35,407 bases of DNA from an uncultured bacterium. Its GTDB lineage: Bacteria > Patescibacteriota > Minisyncoccia > UBA6257 > UBA9933. Under the pieces are notes generated by a model. That model made no database searches and had not been told where the DNA came from. It was given only the letters and a program-made list of their open reading frames with translations. Shown piece after piece: positions 8,985 through 35,390 of this stretch. A program made the position numbers and the translations under genes. The stretch lies in contig CAJVXI010000010.1 in the NCBI GenBank assembly GCA_913009635.1, forward strand, positions 1-35,407, given 5' to 3'. Position 1 is the stretch's first letter; each line of letters begins with the position of its first letter.

Positions 8985-9146
8985 AAATTCAAAATTGCAA
9001 ATCCCAAATTCCAAATCCTTCAACCCCGAGAATTTCAGGACCGAGGGGTAAATTCCAATGACCGAAATTCTAATGATCGAAACCCATGTTTGAAATTTTA
9101 AATTTGGTGCTTATTTGTTATTTGGTGCTTAAGATTTGGTGCTTTA
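8985..9146 (+). repeat. Modular AAATTCCAAATCCC / TTTGGTGCTT repeat
   Basis: Non-coding array made of three modules in order: CAAATCCCAAATTCC-type units (8985-9020), AATGACCGAAATTC-type units (9045-9080), then three TTTGGTGCTT units spaced by TATTTGT and AAGA (9102-9144). The same modules in the same order form the insertion in 23S rRNA at 21981-22114, on the opposite strand of the window but in the sense of the rRNA. Confidence 0.85.
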
Positions 9147-9796: not shown

Positions 9797-9834
9797 AACA
9801 ACTGGTACTTCCACGCGTGGAAGTACCAGTTGTT
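9797..9834. repeat. Palindromic element, copy 1 (38 bp perfect)
   Basis: A perfect 38-bp palindrome with core TACTTCCACGCGTGGAAGTA. The core recurs at 24970-25003 (intergenic) and, with one base change at the centre, inside the enolase gene at 29653-29677. The arms differ beyond the core, so it is a repeated element rather than a duplicated region. Confidence 0.9.
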
Positions 9835-12860: not shown

Positions 12861-15152
12861 TCACCATTTTTCTACTATCAACATCTTTTTATTTTTAATT
12901 GCTAAATGCTGATAGATTTCTTCCGTAATAAACGGCATAAAAGGATGAAGAAGTTTTAGTGATTCTGAAAGAACATAAATAAGAATCTCAGCATTAAGTT
13001 CTTCTTTGCTTTTTTCTAAATAAACATCGCAAAATTGATGCCAGAAAAAATCATAAATTTCGTGAAGCGCCTGTCCAAACTGATAATTTCCCAAATCTTT
13101 ATCAACTGATTTTTTAATTTTAATAAGCTGAGATATTATTTTTTTATCAGCTGATGTTTTAGATTTTGGACTTTGTATTTGAAGTTTAGTATTTCCAATT
13201 TGCAACAATACAAATCTGCTAGCATTCCAAATTTTATTCGCAAATTTCTTACCCGCCATTATTCCATCTTCATTAAAATGAATATCTTGTCCACCCATCA
13301 TCTGATAAATTAATCCAAATCGAGTTGCGTCAGCTCCATATTTTTCAATCAGAACCATCGGGTCAATGCCAGTACCGAGCGACTTTGACATTCTTTTTCC
13401 GTCTTTTGTAAGAATAGTAGGATGAATAATTACATCATTAAAAGGTTTTTTGCCTAATAATTCAGCACTTGAAAAAATCATTCTTGTCACCCAAAGATTG
13501 ATAATATCCCGCGCAGTTGATAAAACTTGTGTTGGATAAAATTCTTTTAAATCATCTTTATTTAGTTTACCAGCCGTAGCCTTGGCGGAGTCTGGCCAGC
13601 CAAGCGTTGCAAAAGGCCACAAAGCAGAAGAAAACCATGTATCTAAAACATCCTCTGCTTGTTTCATATGGCACTGTTTGCAAAAAGGACAATGTTTTGG
13701 CGATTCTGTTGTTATTATAAAATGGCTATCGGACGAATTTTTAATTTTTAATTTTGAATTTTGAATTTGTTTAGAAATTAGAAATTGGGAATTAGAAATT
13801 GCTTCTTGTTTATTTTGACAAAAATAAACAGGAAGCTGATGTCCCCACCATATTTGCCTGGAAATACACCAATCCCTTATGTTATCAAGCCAATCAAAAT
13901 ATATTTTTTCCCAACGTTTTGGATGGAATTTTACATCCCCCTTTTTTACTGCTTGCTTTGCTATTTTTGCCAATTCTGACATTTTTAAAAACCATTGCTT
14001 GCTTATTTGCGGTTCAATTATACTATTGCATCTATAACATTTTGAAATTCTATGGTCATAATCTTCAATTTTTTCAATTAAATTTTCTTTTTCTAATTCT
14101 TCAACGACTTTTACTCTGGCGTCTTTTGTCGACAACCCTTCATAATCCTTCCCTGCTTCTTTTGACATCTTTCCAAATTGATTTATAACTTTATAAATCG
14201 ACAATTTATGTCTTTCTGAAATTTCAAAATCCAATATATCGTGCGCTGGCGTTATCTTTACTGCTCCGGTTCCAAACTCTATTTCTACTGCTGAATCAGA
14301 GACTACAGGAATTTCACGGTTCATAATAGGTAAAACTACTGTCTTGCCAACTAAATTTTTATATCTTTTATCTTTTGGATTTACAGCAACAGCAGAATCA
14401 CCAAGTATTGTTTCGGGACGCGTAGTAGCTACCGTAATATAGTTTTTAGTTTTTAGTTTTTCAGTAAAAGGCTGACCCGCCTTTGGCGGGAAGTTTTTAG
14501 TTTTAATCGGATAACGAATATACCATAACTTTCCTTTTTCATCTTCATATTCAAGCTCTAAATCAGAAAGAGACGTTTGACATCTTTTACACCAATTTAC
14601 GACTCTGTCGCCCTGATAAATCCACCCCTTTTTATAATAATAAAGAAATGCAGTTTCAACCGCCTTAGCGTAATCTTTATCCATTGTAAATCGAGTCCTT
14701 GACCAATCGCACGATGAACCGAGTTTTTTAAGCTGTTCTAAAATTATATTTCCATATTTTTCTTTCCATTCCCAAACTTTTTCAATAAATTTTTCTCTGC
14801 CTAAATCATGGCGAGTTAATCCCTGTTTTTTTAATTCTTTTTCAACAACATTCTGGGTAGCAATACCAGCATGGTCAGTGCCGGGAAGCCACAACGTCTT
14901 ATATCCTTGCATTCGCTTCTGACGAATTAGAATGTCTTGTATAACAGCGTTTAAAGCATGACCCATATGCAAACTGCCCGTAACGTTTGGCGGGGGAATA
15001 ACTATACAATAGCTTTTAGCTTTTAGTTTGTAGTTTTTAGATACGGGCAGTTTATCGGGGTCAAAAAAACCCGACTTTTCCCAAAGTTGATAAATTTTTT
15101 CTTCCACCTCTTTAGAATTGTAAGGTGTGTTAAATTTTTCCTTAACTTTCAT
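12861..15152 (-). CDS. valS: Valyl-tRNA synthetase with several in-frame repeats
   Basis: A 763-residue class I synthetase. HIGH is HMGH (62-65) after PPPNVTGSL, and KMSKS is RMSKS (587-591). The editing domain (about 210-340) keeps ATTRPETILGDSAVAVNP and FGTGAVKITPAHD. The anticodon domain ends at residue 763, so the C-terminal coiled-coil arm is missing (usual length about 880). At least five segments look like repeat DNA read in frame: KLKAKSY (42-48), PPKAGQPFTEKLKTKNY (222-238), the N/S/K/Q-rich 451-474, WPDSAKATAGKLN (519-531) and 652-670. They fall in loops between conserved motifs, so the enzyme is probably active. Confidence 0.96.
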   Translation of the reverse strand: MKVKEKFNTPYNSKEVEEKIYQLWEKSGFFDPDKLPVSKNYKLKAKSYCIVIPPPNVTGSLHMGHALNAVIQDILIRQKRMQGYKTLWLPGTDHAGIATQNVVEKELKKQGLTRHDLGREKFIEKVWEWKEKYGNIILEQLKKLGSSCDWSRTRFTMDKDYAKAVETAFLYYYKKGWIYQGDRVVNWCKRCQTSLSDLELEYEDEKGKLWYIRYPIKTKNFPPKAGQPFTEKLKTKNYITVATTRPETILGDSAVAVNPKDKRYKNLVGKTVVLPIMNREIPVVSDSAVEIEFGTGAVKITPAHDILDFEISERHKLSIYKVINQFGKMSKEAGKDYEGLSTKDARVKVVEELEKENLIEKIEDYDHRISKCYRCNSIIEPQISKQWFLKMSELAKIAKQAVKKGDVKFHPKRWEKIYFDWLDNIRDWCISRQIWWGHQLPVYFCQNKQEAISNSQFLISKQIQNSKLKIKNSSDSHFIITTESPKHCPFCKQCHMKQAEDVLDTWFSSALWPFATLGWPDSAKATAGKLNKDDLKEFYPTQVLSTARDIINLWVTRMIFSSAELLGKKPFNDVIIHPTILTKDGKRMSKSLGTGIDPMVLIEKYGADATRFGLIYQMMGGQDIHFNEDGIMAGKKFANKIWNASRFVLLQIGNTKLQIQSPKSKTSADKKIISQLIKIKKSVDKDLGNYQFGQALHEIYDFFWHQFCDVYLEKSKEELNAEILIYVLSESLKLLHPFMPFITEEIYQHLAIKNKKMLIVEKW
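13155..13203. repeat. In-frame low-complexity repeat in valS (a)
   Basis: An AAATTGG/TTTGGAC-type array encoding residues 652-670 (IGNTKLQIQSPKSKTSADK) in the linker before the anticodon domain. Its composition resembles the AAATTCC-type intergenic arrays. Confidence 0.55.
13735..13800. repeat. In-frame AATTCTAATTCC/AAAATTC repeat in valS (b)
   Basis: About 66 bases of AATTT/GAAATT words, encoding N/S/Q/K/I-rich residues 451-474 between WGHQLPVYFCQNK and a zinc-ribbon-like CPFCKQC. Same repeat style as 8985-9020, 22060-22114 and 35025-35081. Confidence 0.7.
14441..14502. repeat. CTAAAAACTAAAA units around a CCCGCC/GGCGGG hairpin in valS (c)
   Basis: AGTTTTTAGTTTTTAG arrays at 14441-14461 and 14491-14502 flank a perfect CCCGCC-TTT-GGCGGG hairpin (14476-14490). 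Together they encode PPKAGQPFTEKLKTKNY just before the editing domain's ATTRPET. Confidence 0.7.
15011..15040. repeat. CTAAAAACTAAAAGCTAAAA repeat in valS (d)
   Basis: A 30-base array encoding residues 38-48 (KNYKLKAKSY), immediately before the HIGH motif strand. Matches the array filling the ORF-less intron at 18752-18846. Confidence 0.7.
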
Positions 15153-17066: not shown

Positions 17067-17231
17067 CTTGTCAAAGACAAGATAGGGTAGAGATAAAAAA
17101 TATGATTTATTAGTATTTCTCGGCTAAACGCATTGCTACGCTTACACCTAAAACCTATCAACCTGGTAGTCTTCCAGGAATCTATAACGCCTAATCTTGG
17201 GAGGGGCTTCGCACTTAGATGCTTTCAGCGC

Positions 17232-17262
<31 letters not shown>

Positions 17263-17384
17263 TCACCTGGTGGCAAAGCCGGTAGACCAGAGGTTCGTTC
17301 AACCTGATCCTCTCGTACAAGGGTCAACTTCCCTCAAGCGTCAACGCCTACAGCAGATAGAGACCAACCTGTCTCACGCATGAT

Positions 17385-17420
17385 TTAGCCACTAGGGACT
17401 AGTAATTAGCCACTAGGGAA
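17385..17420. repeat. TTAGCCACTAGGGACTAG repeat at the intron 3' end
   Basis: Two TTAGCCACTAGGG units separated by ACTAGTAA. A related array, AGCCACTAGCCACTAGTGG plus TTAGCCACTA, lies at the 3' end of the 1931 intron (20471-20506). Shared tails suggest that a repeat inserted in, or spread with, these introns. Confidence 0.6.
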
Positions 17421-18514
17421 AAACTATCGACCATTACTGATCGCATGGACTATACCACTCTCCTAATTATCTAGGAGAATCAACGTATTAACTATCTTCA
17501 AAAAGATAATTCATTTGGTATCAACCAAATAGTCTCTACAGGTCTTATTAATAAATATATTTAATAAGTTCCCTCGGTATTACCCATTAACGAAGGTTGC
17601 ACGTTATTTGGGGTTCACCGATATGAGTTGATTTCTGCATCTCAATATTACTATTGAGAGCCGCCTTTGTGACGGTCTGACAATATTCTCTATTATTACT
17701 AATAGTATTAGACTATACCTTCTTTAATAATTTCACCTTACTAAAGCTGACGTGTTAGCCGCCTTTAATAAAGGCGACTCTGTCGTATTATACGACAAGT
17801 CGTTACGGGGATTATCAATCTTATAAATCATAGAAGGAATAATAAATGGCTTAATAATGTTTATGAATTTCTGATAACTACTTTTATTAATTCTGATTTT
17901 AAATTTATTTCTATCTTTTACTAAAGTAGCTGTAATCTTATAGTTGTTTTTTAAAAAATCAACTATATATAACTGCTCTTGCCTCAAAAAGCTGTGCGTA
18001 TTTAATGTAAAGCTTTCTTTGGTATTTGAACCGTCATCCATAAACCATATTGTCATCATTCTCGGAGTAAATAGATTAAATAAATTCTTTGGAAAAATCT
18101 TAATATTATTTTTATAAAAATATTTATAAATAACACCAAATTCTTCTAAACTTTTGGTATGGAAATACCAAGAAATCTCTTGAATATTTCTTTTTGGATT
18201 ATTCCATATACTTTTCTTAGGTTCTTTTATTACTAAGCTTTTAAGAATTTCGTATTTCCAAAAAACATAATCTCTTTGTTTTTCTCCGTGATGCACTCTA
18301 AATCGTGCGGTAATTGGATATCGTAATCCAATTGAACGACATTCAAGCCGTGCATCTCCTAATAATGATCCAATAATCACATCAAATTGATGTGGTGAAA
18401 ATAAAGATTGTAATCTTCCCACGGTATTATCCATTACTTAAATTTTAACATTTAAAGTATTCGGACTCCACCGTTATGAGTCAATTTTTACTGGGCTCAT
18501 TTTTGGATTAACTC
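17389..18514 (-). other. Group I intron at E. coli 23S position ~2584/2585
   Basis: The 5' exon ends CTGGGT, which pairs with GCCCAG 25 bases into the intron to make P1 with a U-G at the splice site. The 3' exon resumes before ATGCGTGAGACAGG. The P7 strands AGAGACTA (around 17531-17540) and TATAGTCC (17448-17457) are present. It hosts the LAGLIDADG gene 17733-18434, placed before P7. The 3' boundary is uncertain by a few bases because an ACTAGCCACTAGGG repeat lies there. The site is in the peptidyl transferase centre. Confidence 0.8.
17733..18434 (-). CDS. LAGLIDADG homing endonuclease of the ~2585 intron
   Basis: A 233-residue double-motif LAGLIDADG protein (LAGLIDADG_2 type). The two active-site helices are VIIGSLLGDARLE (19-31) and MMTIWFMDDGS (126-136), each ending in the metal-binding acidic residue (D27 and D134 regions). 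It should cut intronless 23S genes at the insertion site, so that the intron is copied by repair. Its first 20 coding bases (18415-18434, MDNTVGR) are identical to a vestige in the neighbouring 2500 intron. The ORF is intact, so the intron may still be mobile. The last ~25 residues run on into intron sequence. Confidence 0.88.
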   Translation of the reverse strand: MDNTVGRLQSLFSPHQFDVIIGSLLGDARLECRSIGLRYPITARFRVHHGEKQRDYVFWKYEILKSLVIKEPKKSIWNNPKRNIQEISWYFHTKSLEEFGVIYKYFYKNNIKIFPKNLFNLFTPRMMTIWFMDDGSNTKESFTLNTHSFLRQEQLYIVDFLKNNYKITATLVKDRNKFKIRINKSSYQKFINIIKPFIIPSMIYKIDNPRNDLSYNTTESPLLKAANTSALVR

Positions 18515-18751
18515 ACCCAGCTCGCGTACCCTTTTAATTGGCGAACAGCCAAACCCTTGGGACCTTCTTCAGCCCCAGGATAGGGTGAGCCGACATCGCA
18601 AAAATCTATTATTACTAATAGTGTGGACTATATCTTCACCCTATTAGATAGCGCTTCGCGCATCTAATGGGGGCTGACGTATTAATAAGAATAAAAATTC
18701 TTATTCTGTCCTTCAATAAATTCAGGACAAGTCTCTACGGGGTCATACAAA

Positions 18752-18846
18752 ATTTAAAAATACTTAAATACTAAAATACTTAAAAACTTAAAGCTTTATG
18801 TTTTTTAGCTTTTAGTTTTTTAGTTTTTAAGTTCTTTAGTTTTTTT
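18752..18846. repeat. CTAAAAACTAAAA / TTAAGTATTT array inside the 2500 intron
   Basis: About 95 bases of CTAAAAAACTAAAAGCTAAA and TACTTAAATACT units. It matches the valS arrays at 14441-14502 and 15011-15040, and sits where the related intron carries its endonuclease gene. Confidence 0.8.
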
Positions 18847-18871
18847 GCAGACTTCCCACGGTATTATCCAT
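18836..18871 (-). pseudogene. Start remnant of a lost homing endonuclease gene
   Basis: ATG followed by 10 codons (MDNTVGSLQKN) and TAA. The first 20 bases equal those of the 17733-18434 gene (MDNTVGRLQ). The two introns therefore share ancestry, and here the ORF was lost and replaced by a repeat array. Confidence 0.75.
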
Positions 18872-19001
18872 ATAATAATAATTTTATATGGAATTCACCG
18901 TTATAAGTCAGGTTTTTGGTATGACATTACTGCCATAGCACCCCATGTCGGTATGTTAAGGTGCCGAGCGAAGCCGTCGATGTGGACTCTCGGGCTTCAC
19001 C

Positions 19002-19035
<34 letters not shown>

Positions 19036-19197
19036 TCTCCGACCTTTCTATAAAGAATCGTCGGGTCACTAAGTTCTGCTTTCGCACCGGCGCGGCTTGT
19101 CGGCCTTGCCGTTAAGCCAGCTTATGCCTTTACACGTCCAGCCCGATTTCCATCCGGGCCAAGCTGACCTTAATAAACTCCTCCGTTACTTTTTAGG

Positions 19198-20129
19198 CAT
19201 AATGTTAACCTAATTTATATTTCATTGATGGTATTACGTACGACTCAATAAGATTTTTGAATTGTTTAGCGGAATCGCTATAAACATATAATCTCCATTT
19301 ATTATATTGTTTATGAATACCAACTATGATACCAAATTTTTGCTCTATTACTTCTTTAACTAAAACTAATTCTTTCTTCGTGTATCCAAGCGTATGAATT
19401 ATATAAGTACGATGCTTATTAGACTTCCATGATCCGTCATCCATAAACCAAATTGCTAATGATAAAGGATCTAATAATTTTTTAATTATTTTCGGCATTA
19501 TCTTTTTTTTATCAACATAAAATTGCTGAGCATAAAAACGGAATAAGCCGATGGAATACGTTGTAAAGCCATAACTTAAAAATTCTTTGCCTTTAAGATT
19601 CTTAATTCTTGCTTGTGGTTCTTGATGAGTAAAATCTTTAAATTGCTCATACAACCATTTAACATATTCTTTCTGTTTTATAGAATGTTCTACTTTTAAT
19701 CTATATGTACGACCATTATTTAGAGTTTCTAAATGGCCATCCCCTAAAAGCATTCCAATAATAATACTTCTCTGTTTTTGGTTAAGTTTTAGTTTCTTTT
19801 TGTGTTGTTCTATAATTTTTGATCTCATATTTAGGCAGATTACGTAATTAATAACGCAACCTTCTACGTATCGCTACATAGTTCGGACTATATTATCAAC
19901 TCTTTTTTATAAAGAGTTGTTATCGTGTAGTCTCTGAGGATCCTCAAATAATTTGAGTTTCCTGCTGATTGTCCGCATCACTTGTGAGATTTTTACTTGC
20001 CTTTAACAAAATTAAAGATAAGTACTCCAAGATACTGGCGGATATTCCAGCATATAGATAATTTTTCCATACCACATCACTGTGATAGGTCCCCCTCGTA
20101 ATTGCACGGAGTATACGACAATTACATTA
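19198..20129 (-). other. Group I intron at E. coli 23S position ~2262
   Basis: A 932-base intron between CGTATTCCT (U2262) and CCTAAAAAGTAACGG (C2263), ending in G. P7 strands CAGAGACTACACG (19925-19936) and AATATAGTCC (19885-19894) lie before the endonuclease gene, so the gene sits in a P9-side loop, unlike in the other introns. The P3/P4-like GACAATCAGCAGG is shared with the 1931 intron. Spacing to the flanking introns fits E. coli numbering within two bases. Confidence 0.85.
19205..19828 (-). CDS. LAGLIDADG homing endonuclease of the 2262 intron
   Basis: A 207-residue double-motif protein of the LAGLIDADG_2 type. Active helices are IIIGMLLGDGHLE (22-34) and LSLAIWFMDDGSW (122-134). Lysine- and arginine-rich beta strands between them form the DNA-binding saddle. 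The stop lies only a few bases before the intron end. Related to, but clearly different from, the protein of the ~2585 intron (shared FYVDKKKIMPK/YFYKNNIKIFPK and VIPSMKYK/IIPSMIYK segments). Apparently intact. Confidence 0.9.
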   Translation of the reverse strand: MRSKIIEQHKKKLKLNQKQRSIIIGMLLGDGHLETLNNGRTYRLKVEHSIKQKEYVKWLYEQFKDFTHQEPQARIKNLKGKEFLSYGFTTYSIGLFRFYAQQFYVDKKKIMPKIIKKLLDPLSLAIWFMDDGSWKSNKHRTYIIHTLGYTKKELVLVKEVIEQKFGIIVGIHKQYNKWRLYVYSDSAKQFKNLIESYVIPSMKYKLG

Positions 20130-20470
20130 AGGAATACGCCCCATATAAACTACCTACCAGACACTGTCCCCGAACGTTTTTGCCGTCCAGGTTAGTTCAT
20201 AGAATTTAAAAGATGGGTGTTTCATTGGCGGCTCCACTCTGCCCAAAAGCAAAGCTTCAAAGCCTCCCCACTACGCTACGCAATTAAACCCTAAAAACAA
20301 TATCAAGCTATAGTAAAGCTCCCGGGGTCTTTTCGTCTTGCTGCAGGTATCCCGCATCTTCACGGGAATTGCATTTTCACCGAGCTCCTCGTTGAGACAG
20401 TTCCCCAGTCGTTACGCCTTTCGTGCGCTCCGGAACTTACCCGGAAAGGAAATGCGCTCATTGTGTTACA

Positions 20471-20506
20471 AGCCACTAGCCACTAGTGGATTAGCCACTA
20501 ACGACC
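20471..20506. repeat. ACTAGCCACTAGTGG repeat at the 1931 intron 3' end
   Basis: AGCCACTAGCCACTAGTGGA followed by TTAGCCACTAACG. Related to the tail repeat of the ~2585 intron. Confidence 0.6.
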
Positions 20507-20622
20507 AATAACTGGATAGGACATTTCTACCTATCTCTGCATATCGCTATGCAGATCGGACTATATCTTCCAAGCACATAATGTTTTATGTGCTACGGTT
20601 CAGCGTATAGTCTCTGAGGATT

Positions 20623-21111
20623 TTAGGAACGCTTCTTTTTACGATTCATTTTACTTGCTAAATTTAAAATCTTATTCCATCCTTTTTGATTAAGATGTTC
20701 TTTGCGACGCATCATTCCTACCACTTTTTTGAATATTATAAAATCTTTTTGTTTATAACTTCTAAGTGAAAATTTCTCAAAAAATGGAATAATTTTTAAT
20801 TCTAAATCACCAAGCGAACGAACGCAATATCGATAAAGATGTTCATTGTGATTATCATATCGTCTGTTGATAAAAATATTGCCACATCCGAAAAACATCT
20901 TTATTTCTTTTAATACTGATAAGCTTTTTGCTCCTTGCGATACAACAAACTCCGGAAAAATTTGTTTTCCGAATCTAGTGGTATTATTTTTAATAACCGA
21001 GATTGAAAAACATCCTTCTCCATCTGTAAAACCGCTTATCCAGTAAGCCATTCCTAATCTTTCCTGCTGATTGTCTGCACCAGACACTTTTTTACTTGAT
21101 ATATAAACCAT
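20623..21111 (-). CDS. Single-motif LAGLIDADG endonuclease of the 1931 intron
   Basis: A 162-residue protein with one LAGLIDADG helix, YWISGFTDGEGCF (23-35), as in the homodimeric I-CreI type. The first 21 residues overlap the intron's conserved GACAATCAGCAGG core, so the true start is probably the next ATG (MAYWISGF, position 21048), giving 141 residues. The downstream strands (FVVSQGAKSLSVLKEIKMFFGCGNIF, then IIPFFEKFSLRSYKQKDF) are typical of LAGLIDADG_1. The protein would act as a dimer to cut the unoccupied site. Apparently intact. Confidence 0.88.
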   Translation of the reverse strand: MVYISSKKVSGADNQQERLGMAYWISGFTDGEGCFSISVIKNNTTRFGKQIFPEFVVSQGAKSLSVLKEIKMFFGCGNIFINRRYDNHNEHLYRYCVRSLGDLELKIIPFFEKFSLRSYKQKDFIIFKKVVGMMRRKEHLNQKGWNKILNLASKMNRKKKRS

Positions 21112-21963
21112 AAATTTATATGGTCGTATTATACCATAGTAGCGCTGGATACTCCAGATATTCCAGCATATAGCTGAATTTTACTAAGGCTAGCTTATTT
21201 CCACTGACCTTAGAACGATTATAGTTATCGCTGACATTGACGAGGGCTTCGGGCAGTCAGCACTCAATATTAAAAATATCAAGCACCGCCACCGTTAACC
21301 TTCTCGCATCGGTCAGGCGTCACCCCCTATACATCCTCTTACGAGTTCGCAGGGAGCTGTGTTTTTGGTAAACAGTCGCCAGGGATACTTTCGCTGCGGC
21401 CCTTGTTTCCTTGCGGAAATTCGGGCAGGCCTTATCGCTAACTTACGGCCGCTTTTTTGCCGAGTTCCTTAACGAGGACTCACTCGTTCCCCTTAGGCTC
21501 CTCGCCTCATCCACCTGTGTCGGTTTACAGTACGAAGCCGAATACAGGAAATCTTAGAAGTTTTTCTCGGAAGACTCTTCAATTGAATTCTTCGACGAAT
21601 CGAAGTTTTATCAATTTGCGAATTTCGTCATTAAAGACAGCTACCCGGATTTACCTTGATAGCAATTCTAATAATCAATAACACCAAACCATTTAGATGC
21701 TCAATCCTTTTTTCTCCGTCACTCCATCGAACTATATTCGGCGGGCTGGAATATTAACCAGCTGTCCATCGACTTCAGCTTTCGCCATTGCCTTAGGATC
21801 GCCTAACCCTCCGCCGATATCCGTTGCGGAGGAAACCTTGGATTTTCGGGGCCCCGCTTTCTCTGCGGGGTTGCGGTTACTCATGCCAACATTTTCTCTT
21901 CCATACGCTCCACCCCGCCTCACGGCTGAGACTTCATCGCATATGAAATGCTCTCCTACCACA

Positions 21964-22130
21964 CCAATGCTGCGCATTGGAAGCACCAAATCTCAAGCAC
22001 CAAATAACAAACAAGCACCAATGACCAAAATTCAAATGACCAAAACGTGTTTGGAATTTTGAAAATTGGAATTTGGAATTTATTTGTAATTTGGGATTTG
22101 GAATTTGGAATTTCCAGTGCGAAGCACTGG
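21964..22130. repeat. Modular repeat inserted in 23S rRNA (near helix 45)
   Basis: In the rRNA sense this holds AAATTCCAAATCCC units (to about 22060), GGTCATTTGAATTTTGGTCA units (22021-22050) and three TTTGGTGCTT units (21981-22021), flanked by hairpins CCAGTGCGAAGCACTGG (22114-22130) and CCAATGCTGCGCATTGG (21964-21980). Module order and sequence match 8985-9146. It interrupts the rRNA between ACCGAAGACACGAATA and GGTGTGGTAGGAGAG, corresponding to the variable loop near E. coli 1165-1175. It carries no intron core signals, so it is probably retained or excised by RNase. Confidence 0.85.
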
Positions 22131-22648
22131 TATTCGTGTCTTCGGTAATTTGCTTAGCCCCGCTAAATTTTCGGCGCAATCCACCATCGAATAGTGAGCT
22201 GTTACGCACTCTTTAAAGGATGGCTGCCTCTAAGCCAACCTTCTATCTGTCTGTGGTAAATCACTGCCTTGTTAACACTTAGCAAATATTTAGGGACCTT
22301 AGACGACGATCAGGGCTGTTTCCCTTTTGACCAATGGAGCTTAGCCCCCATGGTCTAACTGCCTAGACAAACCTTTACGTATTCGGAGTTTGACTGAAAA
22401 GCTGAGGTTTCCCCCATTACTTCTCAACCAGTAGCTCTACCCCATAAAGATTTTTTCTAAACGCTAGTCCTAAAACTATTTCGGAGAGAACCAGCTATTA
22501 CCAAGCTCGATTAGCTTTTCACTCCTTACCCCAGCTCATCCAAAGATTTTGAACGATCTACTGGTGCGGACCTCCTCTCGACTTTCGTCTAGATTCATCC
22601 TGGCCAGGGCAAGCTCGCTTGGCTTCGGGTCTTACACATACCGCTTAA

Positions 22649-22913
22649 GTCCTGTATTTCATAAATATCATCAAATTTGGAAGTAAAATAATGAGACGAT
22701 TTCGAGGCGCGACGACGAAGTCGTGCAAATGCACTACGAGGAGAAGCAATAAAGAAATCGGCCATTATTTCGCTTTCCCTTTAGGGACGGGCGAATTTTA
22801 GTAAAATTCTTTGTTGCTCGTCGCTCGAGTATATTCATACACTTCGCTCCTCACGCCACGAATTTTGTCAAAATTCGTTCCGCCAAATTGATGAGATTTA
22901 TGAAATACAGGAC
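22649..22913. repeat. 265-base hairpin insertion in 23S rRNA domain II
   Basis: Inverted arms 22649-22680 and 22883-22913 match except for one mismatch and one indel, closing an insertion between GTGTTAAAAGCGCG and CTTAAGCGGTATGTGTAAGACCCGAA. E. coli has only a few bases between the corresponding points (just 5' of GACCCGAAACCC). Internal hairpins include CGAATTTTGTCAAAATTCG and GACGACGAAGTCGTGC. No ORF and no group I motifs are seen. Probably an expanded rRNA helix, or a spacer removed by RNase III-like cleavage. Confidence 0.8.
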
Positions 22914-23102
22914 CACGCGCTTTTAACACTCGGTTTCCCTACGCTTTCATCCCGTAGGATTTAAACTAGCGATATACATAAACTCGTTGGCTCATTCTTC
23001 AATAGGCACGACGTCATCCACTACATAACAAGTTATGCAGTTAGGACTCCGTCTCCTTGTAAGCGTATGGTTTCAGGTTCTATTTCAACGGCCTCGCCGG
23101 CC

Positions 23103-23141
<39 letters not shown>

Positions 23142-23708
23142 ATCATCAAATGTATTTAGCCTTTCCGGATAGTGCCGGATGATTCCCTCGAAGTATTCTG
23201 TCATCGAGGTACTCAAGATAATCCACTAAAAGGATTATTCGTTTTCGCCTACAGGACTATCACCTTCTTTGATCCTGCTTTCCAGCAGATTCAGCTAACA
23301 AATAATTTTATAACCTTTCCTTTCTTCATAAATCACAGAATTCCTTAAAGGTGGAACTCTGCGATTAATAAAGTAGTGTGAAATTCTTACAACCCCGAGC
23401 ATATAAAAAATTATGTACTCGGTTTGGGCTCTTCCCGTTTCACTCGCCGCTACTCAGGGAATAAAAATTTTTCTCTTTTCTTCCGCTTACTGAGATGTTT
23501 CACTTCAGCGGATACGCCGCTCTATTTTTTAAAAATAGAGCCAATTACGGTTTACGTAATTAGGTTTCCCCATTCGGAAATCTCCGGATCAAAAGTTGCT
23601 AAGCACCTCCCCGAAGCTTATCGCAGCCACGCCACGTCCTTCATCGCCATTTGATGTCAAGGCATCCACCATACGCCCTTAAAAAAATTTATCTCTAAAC
23701 CCATATTA

Positions 23709-24969: not shown

Positions 24970-25003
24970 AAACAGGTACTTCCACGCGTGGAAGTACCTG
25001 TTT
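24970..25003. repeat. Palindromic element, copy 2 (34 bp perfect)
   Basis: Perfect palindrome sharing the TACTTCCACGCGTGGAAGTA core and GG/CC flanks with 9797-9834. Leftward it is followed by a T run and could terminate transcription. Confidence 0.9.
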
Positions 25004-25118
25004 AATTGAATTTACTAATATCTCAGTAAAAAATCATGCTACCACAAGTGGTAGTAAAAAAATACGTATTAAAATACGTATTTAATTCAAGGATTAAAAC
25101 AGGGATTTAAACAGGGAT
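25004..25118. other. Short hairpins downstream of the PNPOx-like gene
   Basis: A non-coding gap with CTACCAC-AA-GTGGTAG (25039-25054), AAATACGTATT/AAAATACGTATTT around 25060-25083 and two AACAGGGATTTA copies (25098-25121). No gene is seen. The hairpins lie just past the stop of the 25119-25586 gene and could stabilise or end its mRNA. Confidence 0.45.
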
Positions 25119-29311: not shown

Positions 29312-29336
29312 AAAGACCCGCTTTAAACGGGTCTTT
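29312..29336. terminator. Bidirectional terminator shared by the 29017 gene and eno
   Basis: A 9-bp stem (AAAGACCCG at 29312-29320, CGGGTCTTT at 29328-29336) followed by T-rich DNA rightward and TTTAATTTAAATTT leftward. The enolase stop codon (29335-29337) overlaps the right arm. Confidence 0.85.
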
Positions 29337-30603
29337 ATCTTTTAACTATTTCCAAAATTCGTTCGTATTTTATTAATCTTTCCGGTTTAGCTGGCGCGCC
29401 GGCTTTGATTCCCCAAGCGCCTACGCCAACTGCCAAGTCAGCAATAAAATTATCCATTGTTTCGCCACTCCGATGAGAAACTATTGCCTGCCAATTATTC
29501 TCATAAGCCAGCTTAACAACTTTTAAGGTTTCGGTCAGTGTGCCAATTTGGTTTGGCTTTATCAAAATGGTATTGCCGGATTTTTTATTAATAGCTGTTT
29601 TTAAACGCTCTGAATTAGTGGTTGTTAAATCATCCGCAATAACCAAACATTCAGGTACTTCCACGCATGGAAGTACTCCTAAATCTCTGCTTAATTCTGA
29701 AAAATCATCAAATGACTCTTCATAGAATGGGTCCTCAATTGATAAAATATTGTATGTTTCAATTAATCTTAAATATAAATCTTTTAACTCTTCTGTGGAA
29801 TATTTTTTACCACCAACAACATACTCTGATTTTCTAAAAAACCCAGCTGGTTTATAGAATTGTGAAGCTGCTATATCCAATCCAATCCTTAAGGGATAGC
29901 CATACCGCTCTATTAGATCAGACAAAATTTCAATTGCTTCTTCATTGTTTTTGAATGGAGCTGAAAAACCGGCTTCATCGCCCAAAGAAATATTTTCCTT
30001 GCCAAATTTATTTTCCAATAATGTTTGAAGTTTGCGATAAAATTCCCTGCCAACACTTAAAGCAATACCGAAATCTTCTACGCTTGATATTACTTGAAAT
30101 TCCTGAAATTCAAGATTATTTTTCGCGTGCGCGCCGCCATTAATTACATTAAAAATCGGCTTTAACACAGACTTATGTGGACTAGACACAGACCTATACT
30201 GACTATTTCTGTATGAGTCAGTGTTTAGTCTGTGTAGGTCAGTTATATACTGAAACAATTCTTTCCCTTCGCTTTTTGCTTTTAACCGCGCCCAAGTCAA
30301 AGATAAAGCCAAAATCAAATTACAGCCAAGATTCTTTTTATTTGGCGTACCGTCCAAAGAAATCAAAAAATTATCAAAGTCCTCTTGAGTACTAAAATCT
30401 TGTTCTAAAACTTTATCTTTTATTTCTTCAAATTTTTTTATTGCTTTTTTCGGCTCCAAAACGAACGCTTCGTGCGCTCCGGTGCTTTTGCCGGCTGGCA
30501 CACTGGCGGATACAGAAATATCCGCGGTTTTTAATTCCGCTTCCAGTGTTTCTTTGCCCCGAGAATCTGAAATGATTTTTAAATTAGCGTCAGAAATTTT
30601 CAT
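29335..30603 (-). CDS. eno: Enolase with two repeat-derived in-frame insertions
   Basis: A 422-residue enolase (2-phosphoglycerate to phosphoenolpyruvate). Active-site residues are present: E168, E210 (SLGDEAG), metal ligands D243, E290 (SIEDPF) and D324 (IADDL), K349 (LIKPNQIG), H377 (SHRSGE) and K400 (GIKAG). Two stretches absent from ordinary enolases coincide with repeat DNA. Residues about 121-146 are encoded by a 21-bp-period repeat with its inverted copy (30165-30242, 78 bases, exactly 26 codons). Residues about 310-317 (VLPCVEVP) come from the palindrome at 29653-29677. Both fall in surface-loop positions near, but outside, the motifs, so activity is likely kept. Confidence 0.96.
   Translation of the reverse strand: MKISDANLKIISDSRGKETLEAELKTADISVSASVPAGKSTGAHEAFVLEPKKAIKKFEEIKDKVLEQDFSTQEDFDNFLISLDGTPNKKNLGCNLILALSLTWARLKAKSEGKELFQYITDLHRLNTDSYRNSQYRSVSSPHKSVLKPIFNVINGGAHAKNNLEFQEFQVISSVEDFGIALSVGREFYRKLQTLLENKFGKENISLGDEAGFSAPFKNNEEAIEILSDLIERYGYPLRIGLDIAASQFYKPAGFFRKSEYVVGGKKYSTEELKDLYLRLIETYNILSIEDPFYEESFDDFSELSRDLGVLPCVEVPECLVIADDLTTTNSERLKTAINKKSGNTILIKPNQIGTLTETLKVVKLAYENNWQAIVSHRSGETMDNFIADLAVGVGAWGIKAGAPAKPERLIKYERILEIVKR
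29653..29677. repeat. Palindromic element, copy 3, inside eno
   Basis: GTACTTCCACGCATGGAAGT within 29655-29676 equals the intergenic palindrome core with one central change (GCG to GCA). It is read in frame just before the IADDL metal-binding strand. Confidence 0.88.
30165..30242. repeat. 21-bp-period repeat plus inverted copy inside eno
   Basis: Units 30165-30183 (ACACAGACTTATGTGGACT) and 30186-30204 are 21 bases apart. Inverted copies follow at 30217-30242, so the whole folds back on itself. Matches 24005-24044 in unit sequence and period. Confidence 0.85.
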
Positions 30604-34010: not shown

Positions 34011-35390
34011 CTTTAATACTAACATCAAATCCGAAACATTAAAACTTTTCTGCTCAGTAAAAATTAAATCTCCTGTTTTTTCAAAAAAATCAAAGGATTT
34101 GTTGTTTTTTAAAAATTCTTCATGGTTTAAATTTAATTCTTTTACTTTTTCTATTGTTAAAGAATCAGCAATAGCGCCTGCTGCTTCGGTATTGTCTCTG
34201 CCGTCGCTGGCAAAAGACATTACCATTAAATTAGAATTTAGAATATAGGATTTAGAATATAGGGAATGGACTACTGCACCTAAAACTGCCTCCATATTCC
34301 TGCCGCCTTTCCCATAATTCTTAATTCCTAATTCATTATTCATTGTTACGGTTGTCTCGCCGCCAGCTAAAATTGCTTCGTTGAATTTTATTTCTTCAAT
34401 CATAGGCAATAAAGAATCTTTAGCTTCCCCGTGCAATTTAAGAGAAAAAATTCTAGGTGAAAACCCAAGCTTTTTTGCCTTGTCTACCATTGCGGAAATC
34501 GCACTTTGATTGCAAATAAAAAGAATATTTTTAACTTTTTCAAAATATTTTTTATCCTTCGGCGTTTCTCTAAATTCAATATTAAGGACATCGGATGTCC
34601 TTATATTAATATTCTGATATTTTTGCCAAATTTTTTCCGCGTCTTCTTTTATTGTTTTATCAAAAACCGTAGGGCCAGAAGCTATCATAGACAAGTCATT
34701 GCCGCAAACATCAGAAACAATAAGGGAAATTATTGTTGCCGGATAAGCAGTTTTTGCTAACCCGCCACCCTTCACTTCAGATAAATGCTTCCTGACGGTA
34801 TTTAATTCTTGAATATCGGCACCGGCTTCGGTTAATTTATTAAAAACATCCTGAGAATACTTTAATTCTTCTTCAGAACCGCAAAACAAGGCTGAACCGC
34901 CACCGCATATAAAAGTGATAAGTAAATCATTTTCATCTAAGTCATCTGCTAATTTAATAATTTTTTGAGTAGCTTCAACATTTTGTTTTGATGGCAACGG
35001 ATGCGTTCCGGTTAAAAATTCTATTTTGGAATTTGGTTTTTGGAATTTATTTGAAATTTGGAATTTGGAATTTGGAATTTTAACATCTATAACTATACCT
35101 CCTGAAAACCGCGAACCTAAAGACGTTAAAATCTCTGCTAATGTCATTACAGCAAGTGAAGACCCCTTGCCAATTCCAATAAGAAAAACTCTTTTAAAAT
35201 TATCAAGATTAATTCTTTCTTCTTTATTATTTGGTAATTTAATAATTAAATAATTTTTCTTGACACCTGACACCCGACACCTAACACCTACTACTTTTTC
35301 AATATCAATCGCGTCATAACCCGCTTCAGCAATCAAAAGCGCCTTTCCCCGCAATGAATTTCTTGATAAATTTTTAATATTAATAATCAT
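33999..35390 (-). CDS. Glycerate 2-kinase, MOFRL type, with in-frame repeats
   Basis: A 463-residue type-2 glycerate kinase (GckA/TtuD family: DUF4147 plus MOFRL). Visible motifs: GIGKGSSLAVMTLAE (72-86), FICGGGSALFCG (159-170), NTVRKHLSEVKGGGLA (196-211), SLIVSDVCGNDLSMIASGPT (221-240) and, in the MOFRL domain, AGGETTVT...GKGGRNMEAVLGA and SFASDGRDNTEAAGAIAD. It phosphorylates glycerate at C2, feeding 2-phosphoglycerate directly to enolase. Several segments are repeat DNA read in frame: GVRCRVSG (35-42), the N/S/K/F/Q-rich 105-125, IRTSDVLN (262-269, a palindrome), NNELGIKNYG (350-359) and YSKSYILNSNL (377-387). Confidence 0.93.
   Translation of the reverse strand: MIINIKNLSRNSLRGKALLIAEAGYDAIDIEKVVGVRCRVSGVKKNYLIIKLPNNKEERINLDNFKRVFLIGIGKGSSLAVMTLAEILTSLGSRFSGGIVIDVKIPNSKFQISNKFQKPNSKIEFLTGTHPLPSKQNVEATQKIIKLADDLDENDLLITFICGGGSALFCGSEEELKYSQDVFNKLTEAGADIQELNTVRKHLSEVKGGGLAKTAYPATIISLIVSDVCGNDLSMIASGPTVFDKTIKEDAEKIWQKYQNINIRTSDVLNIEFRETPKDKKYFEKVKNILFICNQSAISAMVDKAKKLGFSPRIFSLKLHGEAKDSLLPMIEEIKFNEAILAGGETTVTMNNELGIKNYGKGGRNMEAVLGAVVHSLYSKSYILNSNLMVMSFASDGRDNTEAAGAIADSLTIEKVKELNLNHEEFLKNNKSFDFFEKTGDLIFTEQKSFNVSDLMLVLKSNH
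34584..34602. repeat. In-frame palindrome in the glycerate kinase gene
   Basis: AAGGACATC-G-GATGTCCTT, a perfect 19-base dyad, encoding RTSDVL near residues 263-268. Confidence 0.6.
35025..35081. repeat. In-frame AAATTCC array in the glycerate kinase gene
   Basis: GGAATTTGGAATTTGGAATT and related words, 57 bases, encoding residues about 104-122 (IPNSKFQISNKFQKPNSK). Same units as the intergenic array 8985-9020 and the 23S insertion. Confidence 0.8.
35261..35292. repeat. In-frame GACACCTAACACC array in the glycerate kinase gene
   Basis: TGACACCTGACACCCGACAC followed by CTAACACCTACT: near-tandem 7- to 8-base units encoding GVRCRVSGV (35-43). Confidence 0.6.

Follow-up and report, generated by a model that had tools for sequence, protein, structure and literature searches.

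A palindromic segment in the enolase gene of an uncultured bacterium and its counterpart beside a TrpR-like gene

The enolase gene (eno) of an uncultured bacterium carries in frame a palindromic segment of 24 nucleotides, which is somewhat more probably than otherwise (roughly 0.55) a copy of the palindrome recognised by a TrpR/HisR-family DNA-binding protein, whose gene is on another contig of the genome (G000:C19:6403-6804). Palindromes bracket genes of this kind, gene and palindrome vary together in lineage dialects, and whole units have been gained and lost. Copies of the palindrome are found across the genome, and some of them lie in frame within coding sequences.

The DNA analysed, here called the window, consists of positions 1 to 35,407 of the forward strand of contig CAJVXI010000010.1 (assembly GCA_913009635.1; 35,407 nucleotides). 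The study genome, G000, amounts to 713 kb in 26 contigs, and its size and gene content suggest a member of the CPR/Patescibacteria. It was compared with an order-wide set of 244 genomes, a phylum-wide draw of 380 genomes and an alignment of 30 sister enolases. Many of the compared genomes are fragmented and probably metagenome-assembled, and the study genome and G009 were covered in stretches.

The enolase segment and other palindrome copies

The features of the window are the following.

29335 to 30603, minus strand: enolase gene eno, full length (422 aa), with metal- and substrate-binding residues among the invariant columns
29653 to 29676, minus strand: palindromic 24-nt segment in eno, 8 codons, identical to the copy at G000:C19:6361
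30165 to 30245, minus strand: second in-frame repeat in eno, NTDSYRNSQYRSVSSPHKSV, at about residues 120-146, of the unrelated AGTCYGTGT family, predicted to be disordered at 127-143
9797 to 9834 (38 bp), no strand: intergenic perfect palindrome AACAACTGGTACTTCCACGCGTGGAAGTACCAGTTGTT, directly 3' of a terminator-like hairpin and ahead of a convergent PHP-domain gene
24970 to 25003 (34 bp), no strand: intergenic perfect palindrome AAACAGGTACTTCCACGCGTGGAAGTACCTGTTT, flanked by two minus-strand genes
25039 to 25054, no strand: palindrome of a different family, CTACCACAAGTGGTAG (also given as CTACCACNNGTGGTAG), adjoining the copy at 24970

The segment is read as GTA CTT CCA TGC GTG GAA GTA CCT, encoding VLPCVEVP directly ahead of IADDL. 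In the alignment of the 30 sister enolases, the metal and catalytic residues do not vary. In the AlphaFold model of the protein (mean pLDDT 89.7) the segment lies in the loop that leads from helix 297-306 to strand 319-321, and in a TIM barrel such a connection faces away from the active site.

The core TACTTCCACGCGTGGAAGTA occurs exactly at 9806-9825 and 24977-24996 of the window, where none was expected from 100 shuffles, and with one change at 29656-29675, which reads ACGCATGG on the plus strand. The two intergenic perfect palindromes sharing this core, the single central change of the eno copy and its translation before IADDL had been described in an earlier note on this DNA and were all recovered. 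The search for the core in the rest of the genome, proposed there, brought the total to 14 copies at no more than three mismatches, and a reversed control pattern gave none. The 13 copies other than that in eno are intergenic, except for one overlapping an 82-aa ORF that is probably spurious. The palindrome measures 24 nt in eno and 22-40 bp elsewhere. Intergenic copies are extended by symmetric outer arms specific to each copy, with pairing of 0.88, 0.65, 0.81, 0.46, 0.62 and 0.58 at the first six outer positions, and some have A and T tracts, such as AAAAAACAGG..CCTGTTTTTT; coding copies mostly have no such arms. Paired copies flanking a gene remain palindromic for 3.4 bp beyond their first difference, as compared to about 0.4 bp expected.

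The statement in the earlier note that ordinary enolases are shorter at this point holds for distant enolases, but within the family the loop is a variable hot spot: among the 30 enolases, each sister genus has its own length and sequence ahead of I(A/T)DDL. The loop of the study genome exceeds that of the shortest sister enolase (G015, 'NVDLSGRLVIADDL') by eight residues, and the residues VLPCVEVP are not shared by the sisters. Neither outcome named as refuting in the earlier note, the same residues in the sister enolases or a lack of further genomic copies, was thus observed. The nearest enolases are 64-71% identical, and no strain-level empty site was found for the eno segment or for any solo copy. 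The same loop in G005 contains a perfect 20-bp palindrome, TACTATCACATGTGATAGTA, in the reading frame used in the study genome; this loop is only two residues longer, and the G005 genome holds eight copies of its own palindrome dialect. The eno loops of G007 and G004 contain other hairpins, and that of G007 has no further copies in its genome.

Other repeats were also observed. The pre-DDL loop of the G014 enolase holds a copy of the unrelated AGTCYGTGT family, which its congener G019 lacks at that place. Repeats of this family (TNACACGGACT-like) are in frame in eno, pgk (L010) and miaA (L007) of the study genome and in the enolases of G014 and G015 (L017, L020), where they give NTD..HKSVL-like peptides. 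The CTACCACNNGTGGTAG family has copies at L074:15200 and L076:17900 and clusters with the ACTTCC family; a partner TrpR-like gene for it was not found in the study genome. AT-rich TTTGGAATTTGGAATTT repeats lie at 34999-35080, 13711-13800, 9087-9144 and 22056-22113 of the window, being intergenic or in frame, the latter in glycerate kinase (IPNSKFQISNKFQKPNSK) and valS. Several large insertions interrupt the 23S rRNA gene (window 17103-23678), with ORFs of the LAGLIDADG type at 17733-18434, 19205-19828 and 20623-21111.

TrpR-like genes bracketed by palindromes

What the earlier note missed is a partner gene of the PF01371 family, which carries the same palindromes on a contig other than that of eno; the order contains dozens of units of this kind. 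The gene (G000:C19:6403-6804) encodes a protein of 134 aa and is bracketed by palindrome copies, with which it makes up a compact unit about 0.5 kb long. The palindrome upstream of this gene agrees with the eno segment, GTACTTCCATGCGTGGAAGTACCT, at 24 of 24 bases, including the asymmetric TGCG centre, as compared to at most 16 identical bases between the segment and the copies outside the unit. Of all the evidence, this identity points most strongly to a common source of the eno copy and the unit copy.

In four genomes, palindrome copies adjoin a small Trp-repressor-family gene, and these four genes match PF01371 above the gathering score. Among solved structures, those closest to them in sequence and fold are of the TrpR/YerC type (3kor, 3frw, 3g1c, 1tro). 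The model of the study-genome protein (mean pLDDT 66.7, with a poorly predicted tail) matches TrpR structures, and W18, E46 and R53 are shared by the TrpR-like proteins. A match to PDB entry 8vd6 ('CAP REPEAT') was discarded, as it comes from a protein-design paper and involves only an HTH-like repeat. No nuclease, transposase or Y1_Tnp match is visible in the bracketed TrpR-like proteins.

A profile search located TrpR-like genes in 84 of the 244 genomes of the order, with a patchy distribution, up to nine per genome and some of them broken. A matched palindrome is present on both sides of 49 of 71 PF01371-like genes order-wide, as compared to one of 921 control intervals, which is itself a PF01371-like gene. 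The centre of the 5' palindrome lies at a median of 40 bp from the ATG and that of the 3' palindrome 31 bp from the stop codon. Each gene is accompanied by a private palindrome (ACTATCACGCGTGATAGT, ACTTTCACGCGTGAAAGT, GCTACCGCATGCGGTAGC, GCTATCACTAGTGATAGC, CTGTGACATGTCACAG and others). At least one further unit of the study genome (on C9) has a palindrome pair by eye, which the filter missed because the two centres differ. Palindrome similarity follows protein similarity across genomes with r 0.38 (permutation mean 0.005, sd 0.048, maximum 0.19), a correlation that could also come from a co-inherited unit without binding.

Units adjoin a tRNA in 2 of 49 cases, against a background of 3.5%. 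Searches of phages, plasmids, viral contigs and PADLOC returned no such TrpR-like protein. Several TrpR-like genes stand at contig ends (G018:C15, G004:C9, G237:C12, G148:C1), as is expected if bracketing palindromes break assemblies. An incomplete literature search found no paper on palindrome-bracketed TrpR-like genes, and the arrangement, recurring across the order with a repeat of its own for each gene, seems to have been undescribed so far.

Copies in sister genera and turnover of units

The pattern TACTNNCANNNNTGNNAGTA is present in 11 of the 244 genomes of the order, concentrated in the family of the study bacterium and differing by lineage dialect, while the ACTATCAC dialect was found in none of the 380 phylum-wide genomes. 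Matches to the ACTTCC dialect in genome and viral contig collections are few, and the named ones lie outside CPR. Genomes of Clostridia/Bacillota (L051, L054, L055, L057) contain long hairpins of the form GGGGACAGGTC..GGTACTTCCA-NNNN-TGGAAGTACC..GACCTGTCCCC, whose 10-bp arms are those of the study-genome dialect; they were rejected as relatives, the GGTACTTCCA arms being part of longer GGGGACAGGTC hairpins and the likeness probably a coincidence.

Coding copies in the sister genera fall in the genes for PGK, IPP transferase (miaA), SpoU methylase, asparagine synthase (asnB), glycerate kinase, MPG glycosylase, SMC and a glycosyltransferase, nearly always in the frame that encodes TITRDS. Those in pgk (G005 and G013) occupy variable loops that have not become longer on balance, so that some coding copies may have evolved in place. 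Certain neighbourhoods, namely eno, pgk, miaA, holA and the gene before rplU, are re-used across genera, although not at the same base. The study genome has three neighbourhoods in common with G005 and three with G013, against 0.4 per pair by chance (Poisson p 0.008 each), a chance value that is a rough hand estimate. G013 and G019 (L093, L095) have a common intergenic copy 14-17 bp past one gene, the centres of which differ symmetrically (CACGCGTG versus CATATATG).

Units as a whole come and go. The unit of the study genome sits between a tRNA gene and pgk; in G005, G011 and G002 the junction of upstream gene, tRNA and pgk is kept and the unit is absent. The congeners G009 and G018 have different units, in both palindromes and proteins, at one orthologous intergenic spot (L230:17000-18000 versus L199:1040-1600), and at another locus they have one unit in common, one palindrome of which has a longer outer arm in G009.

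Where the cognate gene is present, three of about 27 copies are coding and the rest are intergenic, whereas in G005, G008 and G003, where it was not found, all 13 copies are coding (Fisher p about 5e-8, from few, non-independent genomes searched at unequal stringency, with absence calls that rest on incomplete genomes). In G019, a genome only 76% complete, there is one intergenic copy, and a cognate gene was not found. Read most simply, intergenic copies are kept alive or symmetric by the gene, whereas coding copies persist as fossils held by the protein.

Origin of the palindromes and comparison with known systems

The favoured reading, put forward at the probability given above, begins with a TrpR-like protein, two subunits of which would together bind the palindromes. 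Less certainly, the unit may have been the source from which solo palindromes spread as short repeats that are not autonomous, in much the way that REP sequences relate to RAYT. Copies landing in phase in tolerant surface loops would survive, that in eno being one of them; intergenic copies would stay symmetric, or be replenished, only as long as the cognate gene persists, and after its loss only copies under protein-level constraint would remain. As the TrpR-like protein has no visible nuclease, the likeliest copying agent would be host replication or repair, speculatively by template switching at a protein-bound palindrome. The earlier note spoke of a palindromic element entering an essential gene in frame. 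A dispersed repeat in frame has been found; it may have entered by physical insertion, for which the net gain of 24 nt identical to the upstream copy of the unit argues in the case of the study-genome eno. Random spread does not predict the recurrence of neighbourhoods across genera, which exceeds the rough chance value and counts against the favoured reading. The mechanism of spread is therefore put forward only as a proposal, given that the recurrence fits selected binding sites that turn over and that a net insertion is lacking in some coding copies.

The main rival is a functional network of binding sites, in which a TrpR-like autoregulator or chromosome organiser acts on palindromes, including that of eno, that are selected sites created or moved locally without selfish mobility. 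It is considered rather unlikely. Operators of the TrpR/HisR family are indeed known as 20-bp palindromes with a lineage-specific consensus, and the recurrence of the same neighbourhoods at different exact positions in different genera, the symmetric centre changes of the G013/G019 copy, the pgk copies without length gain and the three coding copies in genes of lower glycolysis (eno, pgk, glycerate kinase) would all suit such a network. However, a simple operator needs no second palindrome past the stop codon, and the network accounts poorly for up to nine paralogous genes per genome with differing dialects, patchy presence and decay, for copies deep within coding sequences and for the net gain in the study-genome eno of 24 nt identical to a unit copy. 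More doubtful still, and judged improbable, is that the copies are RNA or DNA hairpins, such as terminators or mRNA-stability hairpins, which have a common core by chance and include the eno copy incidentally. The symmetric outer arms with their A/T tracts and the extended symmetry of paired flanking copies point to hairpins, but the cores have no loop and are conserved in sequence across genera, copies lie before start codons and within genes, the dialect matches the partner gene, and the copy at 9797 comes after a separate terminator-like hairpin.

The least probable explanation is an ordinary mobile repeat that depends on a transposase of a known kind, for instance Y1/RAYT. The layout is RAYT/REP-like and two Y1_Tnp proteins are encoded in the study genome; nevertheless, the contigs with Y1 genes carry no copy of the palindrome, the palindrome-rich G013 and G005 have no Y1_Tnp match, and a GTAG or CGTC tag is missing. 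A parS function, raised by the CACGTG-like centre, was dropped as the sites are scattered over the genome, and a DNA uptake sequence was dropped in view of about 10 copies per genome.

No known system fits as a family, and in its logic the arrangement is closest to REP/RAYT, where a transposase gene is bracketed by palindromes and matching palindromes are dispersed as tagged hairpins (PMC2817692, PMC3733652). The bracketed gene, dispersed copies, co-variation of gene and palindrome, paired symmetric changes and presence of some copies in genes are common to both. In contrast to REP/RAYT, the partner here has the PF01371 TrpR fold without HUH/tyrosine nuclease or Y1_Tnp match, the palindromes are symmetric to their ends with no GTAG/CGTC tag in the aligned flanks, and each genome has about 10 copies instead of the more than 100 of REP. 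The Rickettsia palindromic elements (RPE) are in-frame palindromic repeats longer than the eno segment (PMC10969869). The present copies resemble them in lying in frame at loops of unrelated essential genes (eno, pgk, miaA, glycerate kinase, asnB, SpoU methylase, MPG, SMC) with one favoured peptide, TITRDS in the sister genera, and differ in sequence and in length, at 24 nt versus about 150 bp (RPE are roughly 100-150 bp). The view of the earlier note that this sequence differs from RPE is supported, and no described family was matched to it. We know of no bracketed partner gene of RPE.

Motifs of the HisR/TrpR family are 20-bp palindromes with a lineage-specific consensus, cacTTTAnnnnnnTAAAgtg, and close to half of the hisR genes are preceded by such a site (PMC9413887). 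The published cacTTTAnnnnnnTAAAgtg is in register with the G044 palindrome CACTTTCACGCGTGAAAGTG, and the PF01371 domain, the TrpR fold and a 20-bp palindromic site directly upstream of the gene are as in YerC. Unlike that family, the proteins here are longer (about 130-150 aa), palindromes stand on both sides, many paralogues have private dialects, and the sites are dispersed, some in coding sequence. The genes adjoining the sites are mixed, and many sites lie past stop codons or in coding sequence. PATEs are derivatives of IS605 (PMC3119063); near-terminal palindromes around a small gene and solo palindromes left behind recall them and IS200/IS605, but their IS605 transposase origin has no equivalent here. 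As regards MITEs, a transposase partner for the palindrome was not seen in the bracketed proteins, and no strain-level empty site was found in which target duplications would show.

A minimal class of mobile element is proposed tentatively, at somewhat less than even odds: a nuclease-free TrpR-fold gene with its own palindromes that would move as a unit and seed solo copies, including in-frame ones, via host replication or repair. To our knowledge, the movement of the protein-coding palindromes of Rickettsia is unexplained in its mechanism. The protein-coding palindrome described here comes with a candidate partner gene, the product of which can be purified and tested. If binding is true, the dozens of order-wide pairs of gene and palindrome would be a natural code that relates TrpR-type helices to 20-bp sites; if mobility is true, the protein dedicated to this repeat system would bind DNA without being a transposase. 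The repeats show, moreover, one way in which essential enzymes of reduced genomes gain new loops.
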